From Halovenus sp. (GTDB taxonomy: Archaea; Halobacteriota; Halobacteria; Halobacteriales; Haloarculaceae): a stretch of 11,046 nt of DNA. This document shows positions 5,848-11,046 of the stretch, one piece after another. The stretch is from contig PUMG01000042.1 of NCBI GenBank assembly GCA_003551265.1, positions 1 to 11,046 on the forward strand, in the 5' to 3' direction. A program made the translations under genes and the position numbers. Below the pieces are notes generated by a model, which did no database searches, was not told where the DNA came from, and saw nothing but the letters and a program-made list of their open reading frames with translations. The number at the start of each line of letters is the position of its first letter. Position 1 is the first letter of the stretch.

Positions 5848-7023
5848 ATGAGCAACGAATCCGAGGAGGACGTCGAAGAGGAGCAATCGCAGGCTGACGA
5901 GGAGCTCGAATCACTGGAGGAATCTACTGACGAGGAGACAGACGACGTCACGGACGCCGACACCGAAGAAGCGGCTGACGATGAGACTGAAGCAGACGCC
6001 ACCGAGGATACGTCTGAGGCAGACGAAGCCGAGGATGCGGACGAGGATGCGGATGAGACTGGTCTCGACGACGGCGATTTCATTCTGCTGGATTACACCG
6101 CTTACACCATTGAGGACGAACGTCTGGTGGATACGACCGACGAAGACACCGCTGTCGAGGAGGGCATCGACCAAGAGGGCAGAGAGTTCGAACCGCGGAC
6201 AATCGTCATCGGAAAGGGACACATCTTCCCCAGCGTCGAGGACGACCTCCGCGGCCGGGAGGTCGGAGACACCGGAACCGCCACAGTCAGTTGTGAAGAA
6301 GCGTTCGGTGAGTTCGACGATGAGAAAGTCCGCACGGTGAGCAAAGACAAGATTCCCGAGGACGACCGCTACCCCGGCGCACAGGTCAGTATCGATGGTG
6401 AGGAGGGATTCGTCGAGACGATTATCGGCGGACGAGCACGCGTCGATTTCAACCACCCGCTCGCGGGCGACGACATCGAATACGAGTACGAAATTGTCGA
6501 CGTCGTTGAAGACCGCGACGAGAAGGCTGCAGGGCTGCTGGAGCTGTTCCTCGGAGTTCAGCCCGAAATGTGGTTCCAGACCGACACCGTCGAAGAAGAA
6601 CAGCTCGTCGAAGATGACGATGAAGAAGAGACCGACGACGAGAGCGAAGCAGCCGATGGCGGTGACGAAGAAGAGACTGACACAGAGGAGGCTGACGAGG
6701 GCGACGAGGCAGAGGAAACCGAAGATGAGGAAGAAGACGACGAACCGGAGTACGAGACCGTCGAGGTTGAAAAGGAGACGCTGTACATCGAGTCGACTCC
6801 CGAGTTGACGATGAACCAGCAGTGGATGTTCCAGAAACAGCAGATTGGAGAGGATATGATCGAACTGCTCGACATCGACCGAATCATCGTTCAGGACGTC
6901 ATCGAAGCCCAGCCGGTGGGGATGCCCGGTATGATGGGCGGAATGGGTGGCATGGGCGGACTGGAAGAGGCACTCGGCGACCTCGATATCGACGCCGACG
7001 AACTCGCTGACGAGCTAGAGTAG
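5848..7023 (+). CDS. SlyD-like FKBP-type peptidyl-prolyl cis-trans isomerase with acidic linkers and GGM tail
   Basis: A 391-residue folding catalyst and chaperone. Residues 1-73 are almost entirely D, E, S, T and A and are surely disordered. The FKBP domain starts at DGDFILLDYTAYT (75-87) and continues through IVIGKGHIFPSVEDDLRG. An insert-in-flap chaperone domain sits at about 160-200, and FNHPLAGDDIEYEYEIVDV (201-219) closes the FKBP core, as in archaeal and SlyD-type proteins. A second acidic stretch (248-302) links to a C-terminal domain (303-355). A Gly-Met segment, GMPGMMGGMGGMGG (358-371), and an acidic helix end the protein. Only the FKBP and insert domains have a known activity, isomerising Xaa-Pro bonds and holding unfolded chains. 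The gene is monocistronic, with a TATA box 26 bp upstream. Its last 9 bp overlap the convergent DUF5305 gene. The coding DNA has a small 12-bp tandem repeat at 6031-6054. Confidence 0.9.
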   Translation: MSNESEEDVEEEQSQADEELESLEESTDEETDDVTDADTEEAADDETEADATEDTSEADEAEDADEDADETGLDDGDFILLDYTAYTIEDERLVDTTDEDTAVEEGIDQEGREFEPRTIVIGKGHIFPSVEDDLRGREVGDTGTATVSCEEAFGEFDDEKVRTVSKDKIPEDDRYPGAQVSIDGEEGFVETIIGGRARVDFNHPLAGDDIEYEYEIVDVVEDRDEKAAGLLELFLGVQPEMWFQTDTVEEEQLVEDDDEEETDDESEAADGGDEEETDTEEADEGDEAEETEDEEEDDEPEYETVEVEKETLYIESTPELTMNQQWMFQKQQIGEDMIELLDIDRIIVQDVIEAQPVGMPGMMGGMGGMGGLEEALGDLDIDADELADELE

Positions 7024-8370
7024 CGAATCGACGCTTTTGTTTTCGTTTCCGTCTCTAGCCGTCTCTTCTTCGTCTTCAACACCTGTCGCTGTCACTTCGT
7101 CGTCAGTGCTACCTGCTGTTACATCCGCAGGTGCTGTTGGGTTCTCTGTCGAGACACCACTGCCTTCGTTTTGCGTCCCACGTTCGGACGGCTTGTCACC
7201 ACGTTCGGACGGGGCGTTACCGTTTTCGGAAACACCCTCTCCGTTACTGGCTGTTGCAGTGAAGTCGGCTCCTGCAGATGGCTGTGCCGAGATTGCATAC
7301 AGCAGGTCACGGTCGGTGACGACGAACTCACCGGTCGTGGTGTCCTCGATGACGCGGTTGTTCGTATCGATGGCCACGTCGACGAGGTCTTCGAGCGAGT
7401 CGAGTTCGACACGTGGCCCATCGAGAGATGACTCGGGAACCTGTCCTCGGCTTATCCAGTCGTCGAACGCTTCACGCTCCTGATGACGTTCGAGTAACGC
7501 GAGTTCGACACGTGACGGGGGTACTTGACCCCGGAACTTCAACGCACCGAGGCTGAGAAGACCGACCAGCGAAACCAGAATCAGACCGAACGGTGCGTAC
7601 GAGCGAAGTGGTCCGTAGGTGGCTTCGTACTCGACGAGCTGTGTGCTTTCGTGACGCTCCTGTACAGTGTCTTCCAGCTCGATGCTGTAACTGCCACCGT
7701 CCGGCTCGATGAGGAGTCTGTCCTGGTGCGTGCTGGTGACGCGCTCGCCGTTTACCGTTCCCGAGACACGGGTGTCGAAGACGATGTCCAGTTCAGTCGT
7801 CCCGACGCTCGTTCCGAGCGCTGCTTCGGTTTGCTCGACGCTCTCGACGGCTTCGGTAACGTTGATTTCGAACGCGACGAGTGCTGGCTCTCCGGGCGAA
7901 AGTTCGTCGTGAGTCGCCCGGTCGAGCAGTTCGGTCTGCTGCCAGTACGGCTGTCCGTCCTGGTCGACCGCCTGTGAGCGGAGTTCAGCTTCGATTTCGA
8001 CGTCGAGTTCGCCATCATCAGAGGCGCTGTAGCTGTACTCATGCTCCCCTGCAAAGGTGGGTGAAATTCCGGTGAAGTACACCTGCTGGTTCGAGAGCGT
8101 CTGATTCTCGTCGAACACTGGATTCGGACGGACGACGTCTGCGTGGTGTGAGAGGTACGTCTCCTCGCTCCAGGAGGCAACGATTTCTTCTTCGGTCACT
8201 GTTCCTGGCTCGACGTGTGTCTGATAGACGAGCCAGCCACCGACGACTCCGAGCAGCACGAGTGCGACGACGATGACGACCAGCCAGCGCTGAAGGTGGT
8301 TCCGAACTCGAATCGACCGCAGTGACGGCGCATCTGTACGTTCGCGTTTGTTTTCGTTGTTGTTTGACAT
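7015..8370 (-). CDS. DUF5305 family membrane protein
   Basis: A 451-residue membrane protein resembling the haloarchaeal DUF5305 family, of unknown biochemical role. Residues 1-28 are basic and cytoplasmic, TM1 is about 29-49, and an extracellular domain runs 50-257 with NVT and NQT sequons and many beta-strand-like stretches. TM2 is about 258-277 and a cytoplasmic part about 278-365 (VELALLERHQEREAFDDWIS). A disordered tail follows. The tail repeats PSERG at a seven-residue spacing, encoded by a 14-bp direct repeat at 7178-7191 and 7199-7212. The start lies 24 bp after the signal peptidase stop, so the two genes almost certainly form an operon. From this pairing I infer an accessory role in surface-protein processing or assembly. 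The last 9 bp overlap the convergent FKBP gene. The family call comes from architecture and context, not a search. Confidence 0.78.
   Translation of the reverse strand: MSNNNENKRERTDAPSLRSIRVRNHLQRWLVVIVVALVLLGVVGGWLVYQTHVEPGTVTEEEIVASWSEETYLSHHADVVRPNPVFDENQTLSNQQVYFTGISPTFAGEHEYSYSASDDGELDVEIEAELRSQAVDQDGQPYWQQTELLDRATHDELSPGEPALVAFEINVTEAVESVEQTEAALGTSVGTTELDIVFDTRVSGTVNGERVTSTHQDRLLIEPDGGSYSIELEDTVQERHESTQLVEYEATYGPLRSYAPFGLILVSLVGLLSLGALKFRGQVPPSRVELALLERHQEREAFDDWISRGQVPESSLDGPRVELDSLEDLVDVAIDTNNRVIEDTTTGEFVVTDRDLLYAISAQPSAGADFTATASNGEGVSENGNAPSERGDKPSERGTQNEGSGVSTENPTAPADVTAGSTDDEVTATGVEDEEETARDGNENKSVDSLL
7035..7048 (+). terminator. T-rich candidate terminator for the FKBP gene
   Basis: TTTTGTTTTCGTTT begins 11 bp after the FKBP stop codon (7023). 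Interrupted T tracts of this kind end archaeal transcripts. It lies inside the coding 3' end of the convergent DUF5305 gene, where it encodes the asparagine- and lysine-rich NENKS segment. Confidence 0.45.
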
Positions 8371-8394: not shown

Positions 8395-9555
8395 TCAGTC
8401 GTTCAGGACGCGGTCGAAGAATCCGTCAGTACGGTCGCGGGTTCGGTGTCGAATCCGAACCGTCGACTGCGACCCTCCGAGGAGGAGCCACAGCGTCAGA
8501 AACGGCGTCACGATAACCGCGAGTATCAGCGTGTATGGAACCCACGGATGGATGGCATAGGCGCGCTCGATAACCGCAGGTGGCAGGATTGCGAAGTATC
8601 GGTACTCCGTCATCGAGCGGAGGTAGTATCCCGTCTCCTCGGGGGCGTGAAACGTCACAGTCGCGTTGGCCGTCTCGTTCGTTCCGAGCGAGATGTGGTC
8701 GGGTTCGACCTCGATACCGGAGCTCTCTGGTTCCATGTGCGAGACCGTCGGCAGGAACCCACCGTTGTGGACCTGATACTCGAAGGAGTCGGACCCGCCA
8801 CTGGGGATAATCGTGGGATTCGGGGAGTCGCTCTCGCTGCTGACGATGCCGTAGGTCTCGGTGCCTGCGGGTGCAACCATCCCGACCATCGCACCGCCAC
8901 AGAGCAACACGAGCGCACCAGCGAGCACGAGGCGGTTGTCGACCACGTCCGGGAGCGAGCGGGAGCGACTCCTCGACCGGTCGCGCTCGCCGCTCGTGTC
9001 ACCAACGAACGTCGCACCGAATGCGAGAACTCCCAGCGCGAACAGCAGATAGGCAAGCTGCTGTGAGCCGAGACGCGGTGCTCCGAATAGCCCGGCGACA
9101 GTTCGTTCGGCTCGGTCGAGCAGTGACCCGACTGCCTCGACGCCAGTTCCCAGATGGGGTATCCGAACGACCGTTCCGTCGACCGACAGCGCGACGGCTC
9201 TGACCTGGCCGTCGGTGACCAGCGGTTCGCCACCGCTCTGGTCGGTCACGATGTTTCCGTCTCCCTGTGTGACGTAGCCATCGGCTCGCTCGTCGACGAC
9301 CCTGTGTGTCGTCAGGTCCCCACCGTGCATCTGCTCTGGCTCGAACACGATGACCGCTCCTGTCCCGACGTCGCCCGCGAGCGGGCCGGGCACTGCGACG
9401 AACCCATCTCCTTCGTTGAGCGTTGGCTCCATGCTGTCGCTCTCGACGTACGCCAGCAACACAGGATAGCCGAGGACGTGTCCCGCCAGTAACGCCACCA
9501 GCATGAGGACGAGCGTCCCTGCAACTGCGAGTTCGAGCAGCCGTGTGAGTTTCAT
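8395..9555 (-). CDS. Type I signal peptidase (archaeal S26B type) with extra C-terminal ectodomain
   Basis: A 386-residue membrane serine protease that should cleave signal peptides outside the membrane. TM1 is about 8-30. The catalytic serine is S41 in SDSMEPTL. The second catalytic residue is a histidine, H84 in LTTHRVVD, as in archaeal and ER enzymes rather than the bacterial lysine. D99 lies in QGDGN. Past about residue 165 the protein is longer than a minimal archaeal peptidase. It has TM2 (168-186), a cytoplasmic loop with RDRSRSRSRS (191-200), TM3 (208-228), an extracellular domain (229-340) with N-glycosylation sequons at N293 and N297, TM4 (340-360), and a basic tail. Charges fit the positive-inside rule throughout. 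ATG 9555 has GGGAGGG at 9565-9571, nine bases upstream. The DUF5305 gene follows by 24 bp. This is probably a specialised peptidase rather than the general Sec enzyme, by inference from the fusion and pairing. Confidence 0.88.
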   Translation of the reverse strand: MKLTRLLELAVAGTLVLMLVALLAGHVLGYPVLLAYVESDSMEPTLNEGDGFVAVPGPLAGDVGTGAVIVFEPEQMHGGDLTTHRVVDERADGYVTQGDGNIVTDQSGGEPLVTDGQVRAVALSVDGTVVRIPHLGTGVEAVGSLLDRAERTVAGLFGAPRLGSQQLAYLLFALGVLAFGATFVGDTSGERDRSRSRSRSLPDVVDNRLVLAGALVLLCGGAMVGMVAPAGTETYGIVSSESDSPNPTIIPSGGSDSFEYQVHNGGFLPTVSHMEPESSGIEVEPDHISLGTNETANATVTFHAPEETGYYLRSMTEYRYFAILPPAVIERAYAIHPWVPYTLILAVIVTPFLTLWLLLGGSQSTVRIRHRTRDRTDGFFDRVLND

Positions 9556-9564
9556 CTGTCTGGT

Positions 9565-9571
9565 CCCTCCC
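9565..9571 (-). promoter_or_regulatory. Shine-Dalgarno site of the signal peptidase gene
   Basis: GGGAGGG on the minus strand lies nine bases before ATG 9555. It stands out because mat, thiI and the FKBP gene here appear leaderless. It therefore implies a 5' leader and SD-dependent translation for this operon. Confidence 0.5.
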
Positions 9572-9581
9572 GAGATGGGTG

Positions 9582-9602
9582 CTGACAGGACGTGCCTGTC
9601 AG
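9582..9602. repeat. Perfect 8-bp inverted repeat in the signal peptidase leader
   Basis: CTGACAGG (9582-9589) and CCTGTCAG (9595-9602) are exact reverse complements around a 5-bp ACGTG spacer. The element lies 27-47 bp before the signal peptidase ATG, just upstream of the Shine-Dalgarno site. It could be a dimeric regulator operator or an RNA stem in the leader. A weak TATA-like TTACAAAG at 9645-9652 (minus strand) would place transcription start near 9622, inside which the element would be transcribed. Confidence 0.5.
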
Positions 9603-9649
9603 TCGGTTTCTGCCTATCTCAGGGGAGACAACACACGACCTATGCTTTG

Positions 9650-9803
9650 TAAGTCAGTGGATACCACATCGGTATACGGTTCCTGCGACTCCGGTATACG
9701 GTTAATACCACTCACGTATTCTGTTACTATCACTTCTGTATACGTTGATACCACTCTAGTTCGTCGTAGATACTATCTGACTCAATTGTGGATACCAGAA
9801 CCC
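9650..9803. repeat. Seven-copy degenerate 22-bp tandem array (iteron-like or operator-like)
   Basis: An AT-rich block built on a 22-bp period. The unit consensus is GTATACGGTT followed by RATACCACTC and two free bases. Copies start at 9650, 9672, 9694, 9716, 9738, 9760 and 9782. GTATAC or GTATTC begins at 9672, 9694, 9716 and 9738, exactly 22 bp apart. ATACCA begins at 9661, 9705, 9748 and 9792 (44, 43 and 44 bp apart), with the relatives CTATCA at 9727 and ATACTA at 9770 falling between. The copies at 9694 and 9738 match at 18 of 20 aligned positions. Each full unit contains a GTAT/ATAC dyad. Twenty-two base pairs is about two helical turns, so all copies face the same side of the DNA. The array lies about 95 bp upstream of the signal peptidase start, with the zinc-finger gene on its other side. 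An operator cluster is my first reading; a replication iteron array is second, since no replication gene is seen. Confidence 0.75.
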
Positions 9804-9819
9804 TGTACAGACCTCACTG

Positions 9820-9978
9820 TCAGATAGGGGGGACAATCTCGTCACACGTTGGACACTCCGCAAGCATTCTCGGCCAGCTTCCGGCTTCGGTGTACTTCGC
9901 CAGCAGGTGCCGAGATGAGACCCGCTGCTCACAGAGTGGACATCGACCGAGCGTCGGCGAGAGTTCGTCCTGTCCCAC
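9820..9978 (-). CDS. Small CPxC zinc-finger protein, GTG start
   Basis: A 52-residue protein with GRCPLCEQRV near residues 11-20 and AECPTCDEIV near 40-49. The two CPxC knuckles are about 27 residues apart, a compact four-cysteine zinc-binding site. The central SSRHLLAKYTEAGS segment suits the beta hairpin and short helix of small haloarchaeal zinc-finger proteins, which I recall as common but functionally unknown. The proposed start is GTG 9978, giving VGQDELSPTLGRC with the initiator as Met. The frame stays open to 10011 without an ATG and includes another Cys-His pair, so an unusual start upstream cannot be excluded. A weak TATA-like TAACAATT (10002-10009, minus strand) lies about 27 bp before the GTG, fitting a leaderless transcript. 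Codon use and the paired CPxC motifs argue strongly for coding. On the plus strand this stretch is open but gives non-haloarchaeal, cysteine-rich sequence. Confidence 0.72.
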   Translation of the reverse strand: MGQDELSPTLGRCPLCEQRVSSRHLLAKYTEAGSWPRMLAECPTCDEIVPPI

Positions 9979-10051
9979 AGCGTGGCAGACGTCGGGAGGC
10001 GGAATTGTTAGTCACTGGATACCTATGGCACCCACTGCCCGAGTTCGAGGT

Positions 10052-10888
10052 ATGGCCGATTCCGAAGCCACAGTGACAGAGACGCGTCGACAGTTCGACC
10101 AGCCCGCGCTCGTCGAGCGCTTCAAGAACCCGGAGTACACTGGCGAGAACAGGTGTCTCCCGTGTACGATTCTCAACACGCTCATCGCTGTCGTCGTGAG
10201 CATCGTGGTCGGGGTGTTCTCGCTCCCGGCAGGCGGCGCACTCTTCGTCGCAAGCGTCCTGGTCATCTTCTTCCGTGGATACCTGATTCCGGGTACGCCC
10301 ACACTCGTGCAGTACTTGCCCGAACGAGTTCACGACGCTCTGGGGACGACACCCCACCACGACGAGCATGTCGAGGTGTCGTTCGACGTCGAGACGACGC
10401 TCACCGACGCAGCCATCATCAGAGAGTGTCCAGAGACCGACGACCTCTGCCTGACCGAGAGCTACCGCAGTGCCTGGCACCAGCGGATGGCCGAGTTAGA
10501 AGGAGACGACCAGAAACGGTATCGACTCTCGGATTCGCTGGTGGTCCCTGCCAACGAAGTTGAGTTCGAGGAGACCGAAACCGGCTGGCACGTTCACATC
10601 GAGGGGGTTCACGCCGGACGGTGGCACTCCGAAGCCGCGTTCGTCGCAGACCTCGCCAGCGAGGAGTTGCTCGGTGAGCGTCTCGACCGCTGGGAAGAGC
10701 TGCCCGCCGACCAGCGAACCCAGCTTCTGGTTGCACTCCGGACGTTCGTTGAGGAGTGCCCCTCCTGTGGGGGAGCGGTCGTTGCAGACGAGGACGTTGT
10801 ACGGTCGTGCTGTCGTGACGACATCGTCTCCGTGACGGCTGCGTGCGTCGAGTGTGACGCGGTGCTGTTCGAGGGAACAGAGAACTGA
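10052..10888 (+). CDS. Membrane-anchored zinc-ribbon protein of unknown function
   Basis: A 278-residue protein I cannot assign to a named family. A CLPC pair (C35, C38) lies directly before two hydrophobic spans, about 39-57 and 62-80, which end in RGYLIPGTPTL. Similar NRC-PC plus two-helix segments occur in other haloarchaeal hypothetical proteins as far as I recall. The central acidic soluble part (100-230) contains another cysteine pair (C126, C133). The C-terminus is ribbon-like: CPSC (236-239), CC (253-254) and CVEC (265-268). Both ends should lie in the cytoplasm if the two helices form a hairpin. ATG 10052 (MADSEATV) is preferred, with GATACCTAT as a possible TATA box about 30 bp upstream. 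ATG 10025 would add nine residues, and the frame is open back to 9788 only through the opposite-strand zinc-finger gene. Part of the C-terminal coding DNA is repeated downstream. Confidence 0.75.
   Translation: MADSEATVTETRRQFDQPALVERFKNPEYTGENRCLPCTILNTLIAVVVSIVVGVFSLPAGGALFVASVLVIFFRGYLIPGTPTLVQYLPERVHDALGTTPHHDEHVEVSFDVETTLTDAAIIRECPETDDLCLTESYRSAWHQRMAELEGDDQKRYRLSDSLVVPANEVEFEETETGWHVHIEGVHAGRWHSEAAFVADLASEELLGERLDRWEELPADQRTQLLVALRTFVEECPSCGGAVVADEDVVRSCCRDDIVSVTAACVECDAVLFEGTEN
10766..10836 (+). repeat. 71-bp direct repeat, copy 1 (inside zinc-ribbon gene)
   Basis: Starts TGTGGGGGAGCGG and ends ATCGTCTCCGTGAC. Every base is identical to 10976-11046, at an offset of exactly 210 bp (70 codons). 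This copy encodes the first CPSC cysteine knuckle region through the CC pair of the membrane/zinc-ribbon protein. Confidence 0.95.
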
Positions 10889-10975: not shown

Positions 10976-11046
10976 TGTGGGGGAGCGGTCGTTGCAGACG
11001 AGGACGTTGTACGGTCGTGCTGTCGTGACGACATCGTCTCCGTGAC
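10976..11046 (+). repeat. 71-bp direct repeat, copy 2 (ends at the window edge)
   Basis: Exact copy of 10766-10836, running to the last base given. The bases just before the two copies differ (A at 10975, C at 10765), so the left boundary is sharp. The right boundary is unknown because the window ends, and 71 bp is a minimum length. Confidence 0.95.

Follow-up and report, generated by a model that had tools for sequence, protein, structure and literature searches.

We predict that an array of degenerate repeats with a period close to 22 bp, located upstream of a signal peptidase gene in a haloarchaeal genome, is a multi-site operator of the operon encoding this signal peptidase and a DUF5305 protein. 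The array itself is real, as its periodicity exceeds both shuffled sequences and AT-rich DNA of relatives. Its interpretation as an operator, bound by a cooperative, oligomeric helix-turn-helix (HTH) regulator that would most likely be Lrp/AsnC-like, is drawn from sequence comparison, and we assign it a probability of about 0.68.

Genomic context

The window, i.e., the whole stretch of DNA analyzed, is the entire 11,046-base contig C363 of a 2.9-Mb assembly consisting of 380 contigs. We take the host to be a Halovenus-group haloarchaeon, and four further genomes (G003, G009, G011 and G013) to be genus mates. The array (9661-9806) is flanked by the stop codon of a DUF7837 gene, 13 bp past its distal end, and by a signal peptidase gene on the minus strand. 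As stated in a preliminary description of this locus, the array region is more AT-rich than its surroundings, with 43.5% GC compared to 59.9% window-wide. The genes nearest to the array are the following.

7015..8370, minus strand: DUF5305 protein, gene 2 of the presumed operon (PF17231, E 3.1e-52)
8395..9555, minus strand: archaeal-type signal peptidase I, gene 1 of the presumed operon (TIGR02228, 48 bits)
9820..9978, minus strand: 52-aa double-CPxC protein, DUF7837 (PF25207, E 1e-14)
10052..10888, plus strand: divergent gene whose product has a CLPCT motif close to its N-terminus and cysteines at its C-terminus

The start codon (ATG) of the signal peptidase gene is preceded by a Shine-Dalgarno-like GGGAGGG. 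The TIGR02228 score of the protein falls just short of the cut-off of 51.85, its similarity to SipW is weak, and a Pfam search at E 1e-3 assigned it to no family; the orthologues in G009 and G013 exceed the TIGR02228 cut-off. With regard to the double-CPxC protein, small zinc-finger proteins of Haloferax volcanii reportedly matter for biofilm and swarming.

A graded array with a 22-bp period

Over positions 9650-9803, self-identity at a lag of 22 is 0.538, compared to 0.254 on average in shuffled sequences (z 7.4), and none of 2000 shuffles equalled this value at any period tested (5-60). Similarly, TRF reports a period of 22 at 9661-9756 (4.4 copies, 68% match) with a score of 80, which was reached by none of 1000 dinucleotide shuffles of 9560-9825 (maximum 68). 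The preliminary description proposed that the array should be regarded as chance if shuffled AT-rich haloarchaeal DNA were equally periodic, which we did not find to be the case. As a control with real DNA, we used 154-bp segments from 23 loci (L052-L074; 234,803 bases). Among segments of any GC content, 118 of 22,982 have an identity of at least 0.538 at lags 15-40, and the 12 of these 118 that were listed all have a high GC content (0.59-0.71) and lags that are multiples of 3, like coding repeats. Among segments with a GC content below 0.52, none of 5037 reached 0.538 at lags 10-60, the best being 0.50 at lag 60.

In the orientation of the operon, the repeated unit is a 15-bp semi-palindrome, ATACC-N5-GGTAT, that is perfect only in the promoter-proximal copy. 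The copies, together with the TATA-like box adjacent to them, are as follows.

9645..9652, minus strand: TATA-like box TTACAAAG of the putative signal peptidase promoter
9661..9675, minus strand: candidate operator copy 1, promoter-proximal, perfect (ATACC-GATGT-GGTAT); the right half is RGTAY in four orthologues
9683..9697, minus strand: candidate copy 2; left half 5/5, right half 2/5
9705..9719, minus strand: candidate copy 3; left half 4/5, right half 5/5
9727..9741, minus strand: candidate copy 4; left half 4/5, right half 3/5
9748..9762, minus strand: candidate copy 5, half site, after a 21-bp step; right half 5/5, left half 2/5
9770..9784, minus strand: candidate copy 6, half site, weakest; right half 4/5, left half 1/5
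9792..9806, minus strand: candidate copy 7, half site; right half 5/5, left half 2/5

Matched half-site bases in copies 1-7 thus number 10, 7, 9, 7, 7, 5 and 7 of 10; the right half is lost in copy 2, and the left half in copies 5-7. The blocks from which the array was originally recognized occur where they had been placed, with GTAT at 9672, 9694, 9716 (as GTATTC) and 9738 and ATAC at 9661, 9705, 9748 and 9792, and there is a further ATACTA at 9770. As to the GTAT/ATAC dyad ascribed to the unit, the form that has the best copy is ATACC-N5-GGTAT.

Other aspects of the preliminary description need adjustment. It counted seven units, and units 1-4 (9661-9748) are indeed strong: with a leave-one-out matrix, their scores are equalled by 0, 0, 0 and 1 of the 21,640 other 22-mers in the window. 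However, the scores of units 5-7, which retain chiefly the ATACCA half, are equalled by 77, 462 and 63 of these 22-mers. The period was called strict, but it is interrupted by a single 21-bp step (9727 to 9748). Finally, it is not accurate that every copy is on one DNA face. Two turns do not exactly equal 22 bp: with a helical repeat of 10.5 bp, the rotation is 34 degrees from copy to copy and reaches 171 degrees over 131 bp, so that the copies follow a slowly winding superhelix, and a common face is only an approximation.

A conserved promoter module in related genomes

The TATA-like box is 8 bp downstream of the end of copy 1. An alignment of five species (the window with G003, G009, G011 and G013) reveals a common module, RGTAY-N5-G-N2-TTACAAA, whose first element is AGTAT in G009. 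All five sequences additionally have TGT at a distance of 19-21 nt downstream of the box's first base. When these five sequences are anchored and compared without gaps, so that indels exaggerate the divergence of the flanks, 21-34 of 45 positions are identical at -25..+20, compared to 5-23 of 45 at -70..-25 and 8-22 of 40 at +20..+60. Counting the window's own genome, the module is found in 5 of the 7 examined signal peptidase loci of at least 54% identity, and is not found upstream of the orthologues in G035 and L054.

Evidence for more than one site is available in two of the relatives. In G013 and G011, a second GGTAT is located exactly 22 bp upstream of the first; the frequency of GGTAT in this slot among shuffles is 0.0004 and 0.00065, respectively, although this calculation was made post hoc. 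The two genomes belong to sister species, with signal peptidases that are 82% identical, and the two sequences therefore count nearly as one observation. In the window itself, the -22 copy is degenerate, having lost GGTAT, the very half that G013 and G011 retain. G009 and G003 have no GTAT in the -22 slot and lack the left half-site, and by eye a preceding open frame appears to end 20-25 nt upstream of their module.

The preliminary description proposed orthologous upstream regions as a test of the array, and the outcome is mixed. The proximal module is kept in the four orthologues, but the long array is absent: over 115 bp, lag-22 identity is 0.591 in the window compared to 0.247-0.333 in the orthologues. 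Relative to these four, the long array thus appears to be confined to this genome. Nonetheless, the array is probably functional, at least in part, because a partner at 22 bp occurs in the two sister relatives and because half-sites are retained in units 5-7. The earlier proposal of multi-site protein binding at this promoter is likewise supported, as an inference, by the register of the proximal unit with the TATA-like box, by the module in four Halovenus-group genomes and by the additional GGTAT at 22 bp in two of them.

Occurrence of the motif elsewhere

The core of the module, GTAT-N5-G-N2-TTACAAA, has 8 matches in 7 of 59 genomes (control, 1 match). Four of these are at signal peptidase promoters, including the window's; three are within open frames (200, 367 and 1005 aa), and one is outside long frames. 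A longer pattern, GGTAT-N8-TAC-N5-TGGTAT, which was derived from the G013 and G011 promoters themselves and has no match in the window, is present in 2 of 97 genomes, solely at these same promoters (control, 0). When 21 genomes were searched by DNA similarity, another 12 matches turned up, with lengths of 16-27 bases (best E 0.012).

Within the window's genome, no pattern that we tried found a second array, and neither array nor module is upstream of two signal peptidase paralogues (contigs C360 and C244). An exact 18-base stretch of the array, searched with at most 3 mismatches, matches at the array only (control, 1). Single pairs of motifs are commoner than their reversed controls: GGTAT-N17-GGTAT has 7 matches including the array (control, 1), and RTACC-N5-GGTAT has 12 matches at 9 separate places, among them the array (control, 2 matches). 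We considered whether such places could form a shared regulon in this genome, and rejected this idea; 11 of the 14 non-array places are inside open frames of more than 200 aa, and the other three (on contigs C12, C83 and C190) are in frames of 143-158 aa.

Comparison to known regulatory systems

In archaea, regulators of the Lrp type occupy clustered, imperfect semi-palindromes that are two or three turns apart, in some cases binding cooperatively and wrapping the DNA, and they can either activate or repress (reviewed in PMC2995911; for BarR, PMC10201364). The array resembles such clusters in consisting of several imperfect 13-15-bp semi-palindromes near a core promoter (the BarR sites have 15 bp; PMC2995911, PMC10201364), and in its spacing of roughly two turns, i.e., 22 bp with one 21-bp step (PMC2995911). 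It differs from the clusters in these sources in that as many as seven copies recur about every 22 bp. Its site centers do not appear specially AT-rich (20 of 35 positions are A/T, compared to 83 of 146 array-wide and 40% in the window). The half-site also differs, being ATACC/GGTAT, whereas the three BarR sites compared begin with TTG (PMC10201364). Given the composition of the centers, and given that no regulator is linked to the locus, we say that the array would work like an Lrp cluster, and not that it is one.

Two haloarchaeal systems are also comparable. At the promoter of the halolysin gene sptA in Natrinema sp. J7-2, the TATA box is immediately preceded by positive and negative elements, GAAAT-N7-ATTTC and TTCTT-N10-AAGAA (PMC6085418). 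Like the array, these are semi-palindromes directly upstream of a TATA or TATA-like box, and sptA encodes a haloarchaeal exported protein; unlike the array, they form no phased array as far as described there, and a search of the array for GAAAT-N7-ATTTC gave no match (PMC6085418). The sites of CsmR in Haloferax volcanii are TATCA-N4-TGATA semi-palindromes adjoining the BRE/TATA of archaellum genes, i.e., genes for a surface appendage, and the array's semi-palindrome similarly adjoins a TATA-like element (PMC13286277). The CsmR motif has no match in the window at up to 2 mismatches, where 1.14 are expected by chance. The preliminary description knew of no described haloarchaeal regulator with this motif; for CsmR and one sptA motif this is correct, but the statement extends only to the few motifs compared. 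We conclude that this kind of operator is already known, that the motif of the array matches none of those compared, and that this member appears new within the searches made.

Alternative explanations

The main rival explanation is that the copies beyond the conserved proximal module are a decaying tandem duplication that arose by slippage and has no function. Tandem duplication may well explain how the array originated. Moreover, four orthologues are without the long array, the copies weaken with distance from the promoter, units 1 and 2 resemble each other beyond the half-sites as well, which recent duplication alone would produce, and the window has only a degenerate copy in the -22 slot. 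However, a functionless remnant would not readily account for a copy retained at exactly 22 bp in two sister relatives, and decay has not been even, in that units 5-7 retain their ATACCA half. We therefore regard the absence of any function in these copies as rather unlikely, although it deserves serious consideration. A second idea is that the array is bendable, chromatin-positioning DNA, in which TA steps at about 11 bp favor wrapping by histones or nucleoid proteins and no sequence-specific regulator is involved. The region is an AT-rich island, and its 19 TA steps (9650-9803) do concentrate at a period of 11.0, with a vector strength of 0.54, compared to 0.37 at 10.5 and 0.11 at 10.0. Conservation, however, extends to a specific sequence (RGTAY-N5-G-N2-TTACAAA) at a single promoter, and not to TA phasing in general, so we consider this explanation improbable.

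The remaining alternatives fare worse. Dyadic units can be drawn as hairpins, which might suggest an untranslated RNA element such as a riboswitch or attenuator, but the region folds no better than shuffles (z +1.20 on the minus strand and +0.27 on the plus strand), Rfam at gathering score gives no match, and the array is upstream of the inferred transcript start; we view an RNA element as very improbable. Replication iterons or an origin element, which the preliminary description also entertained, would share the layout of tandem, phased, AT-rich repeats. Nevertheless, ten scanned ORFs include no Orc1/Cdc6 or Rep, there is no plasmid match, the same contig carries the housekeeping genes for SAM synthetase and ThiI, and the conservation is anchored to the promoter. 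The likelihood of a role in replication is accordingly close to negligible.

A possible mechanism and candidate regulators

Under the operator hypothesis, a dimeric HTH regulator would bind the perfect proximal site, and further dimers would cooperatively bind the weaker copies 22 bp apart, such that the bound dimers wrap the AT-rich DNA in a gentle superhelix. The level of the regulator or of a ligand would then set the recruitment of TFB/TBP. The array probably grew in this lineage by tandem duplication of the proximal module. The position of the sites upstream of the TATA-like box leans toward activation, while allowing for repression beside the TATA box, as LrpA is reported to do. The "tightly controlled secretion" suggested earlier for this locus is an inference of the same kind.

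An Lrp has reportedly been studied in Haloferax mediterranei. The window's genome has 7 matches to PF01037, all above the cut-off and none linked to the locus, and we noticed no regulator gene on inspecting by eye the ORF lists of the orthologous contigs. A BAT/GAF/HTH_10 regulator gene followed by a response-regulator gene (218-2423) is present at the left contig end, with no link to the array that we could find. We rejected the BAT/GAF/HTH_10 regulator (218-1753) as the binder, since nothing links it to the array and we saw no gene of this kind in the same ORF lists.

It is possible, though we offer this only tentatively, that an as yet undescribed haloarchaeal regulator is dedicated to ATACC-N5-GGTAT at essentially one promoter, and that in this lineage the expansion of its operator from a single copy or a pair to about seven turned a simple switch into a cooperative, threshold-like one for SipW-like fimbrial export. 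If the array is an operator, relatives have one, two phased or about seven graded sites at the same promoter. This would constitute a natural series for effects of copy number and phasing on the response of an archaeal promoter, as well as an entry point to the control of TasA/Taf-like fimbrial protein export in archaea.

Possible role of the operon in fimbrial export

It is a reasonable guess that the SipW-like signal peptidase/DUF5305 operon exports TasA/Taf-like fimbrial proteins. On three of five relatives' contigs (L052, L054 and L056), the four proteins near the operon that we scanned are all TafE/TafA-like, with scores well under the cut-off, and two of the four carry DUF1102. In the window's genome, there are 14 TafE-like matches, on other contigs and with none above the cut-off. 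Literature searches found nothing on DUF5305, and among their best-ranked matches there was no paper about a GGTAT operator or Taf fimbriae.

A TAACAAAG box is present at two TafE-like genes of G011 and at one of the window's genome, and a TAACAAAT box is upstream of the paralogous signal peptidase gene on contig C244. We rejected shared regulation of the operon with fimbrial genes, as all of the genes with these two boxes are without the GTAT element 13 bp before the box. At most, the fimbrial genes and the operon share the TATA variant alone. TAACAAA boxes resembling TTACAAAG are located at L056:652-660, L056:2065-2073, L111:1461-1468 and in L121, a short distance before TafE-like genes and before a paralogous signal peptidase gene. 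Possibly, this TATA variant is common to the genus.

Additional features of the contig

A family search at E 1e-3 returned none for the divergent gene, while genes with its CLPCT/cysteine signature are present in 9 of 17 scanned loci, including the window. Upstream of this gene, GGATACC (10018-10024) could be taken for an eighth copy of the unit; we rejected it because it coincides, by eye across species, with the divergent gene's own TATA-like region. A 19-base repeat with 89% identity occurs at 9647-9665, in the signal peptidase promoter, and at 10005-10023, between the DUF7837 and divergent genes. Finally, 10766-10836 is exactly duplicated in direct orientation at 10976-11046 (71 bases), where the second copy reaches the contig end; this duplicate probably either arose in assembly as an artefact or marks a repeat's edge.
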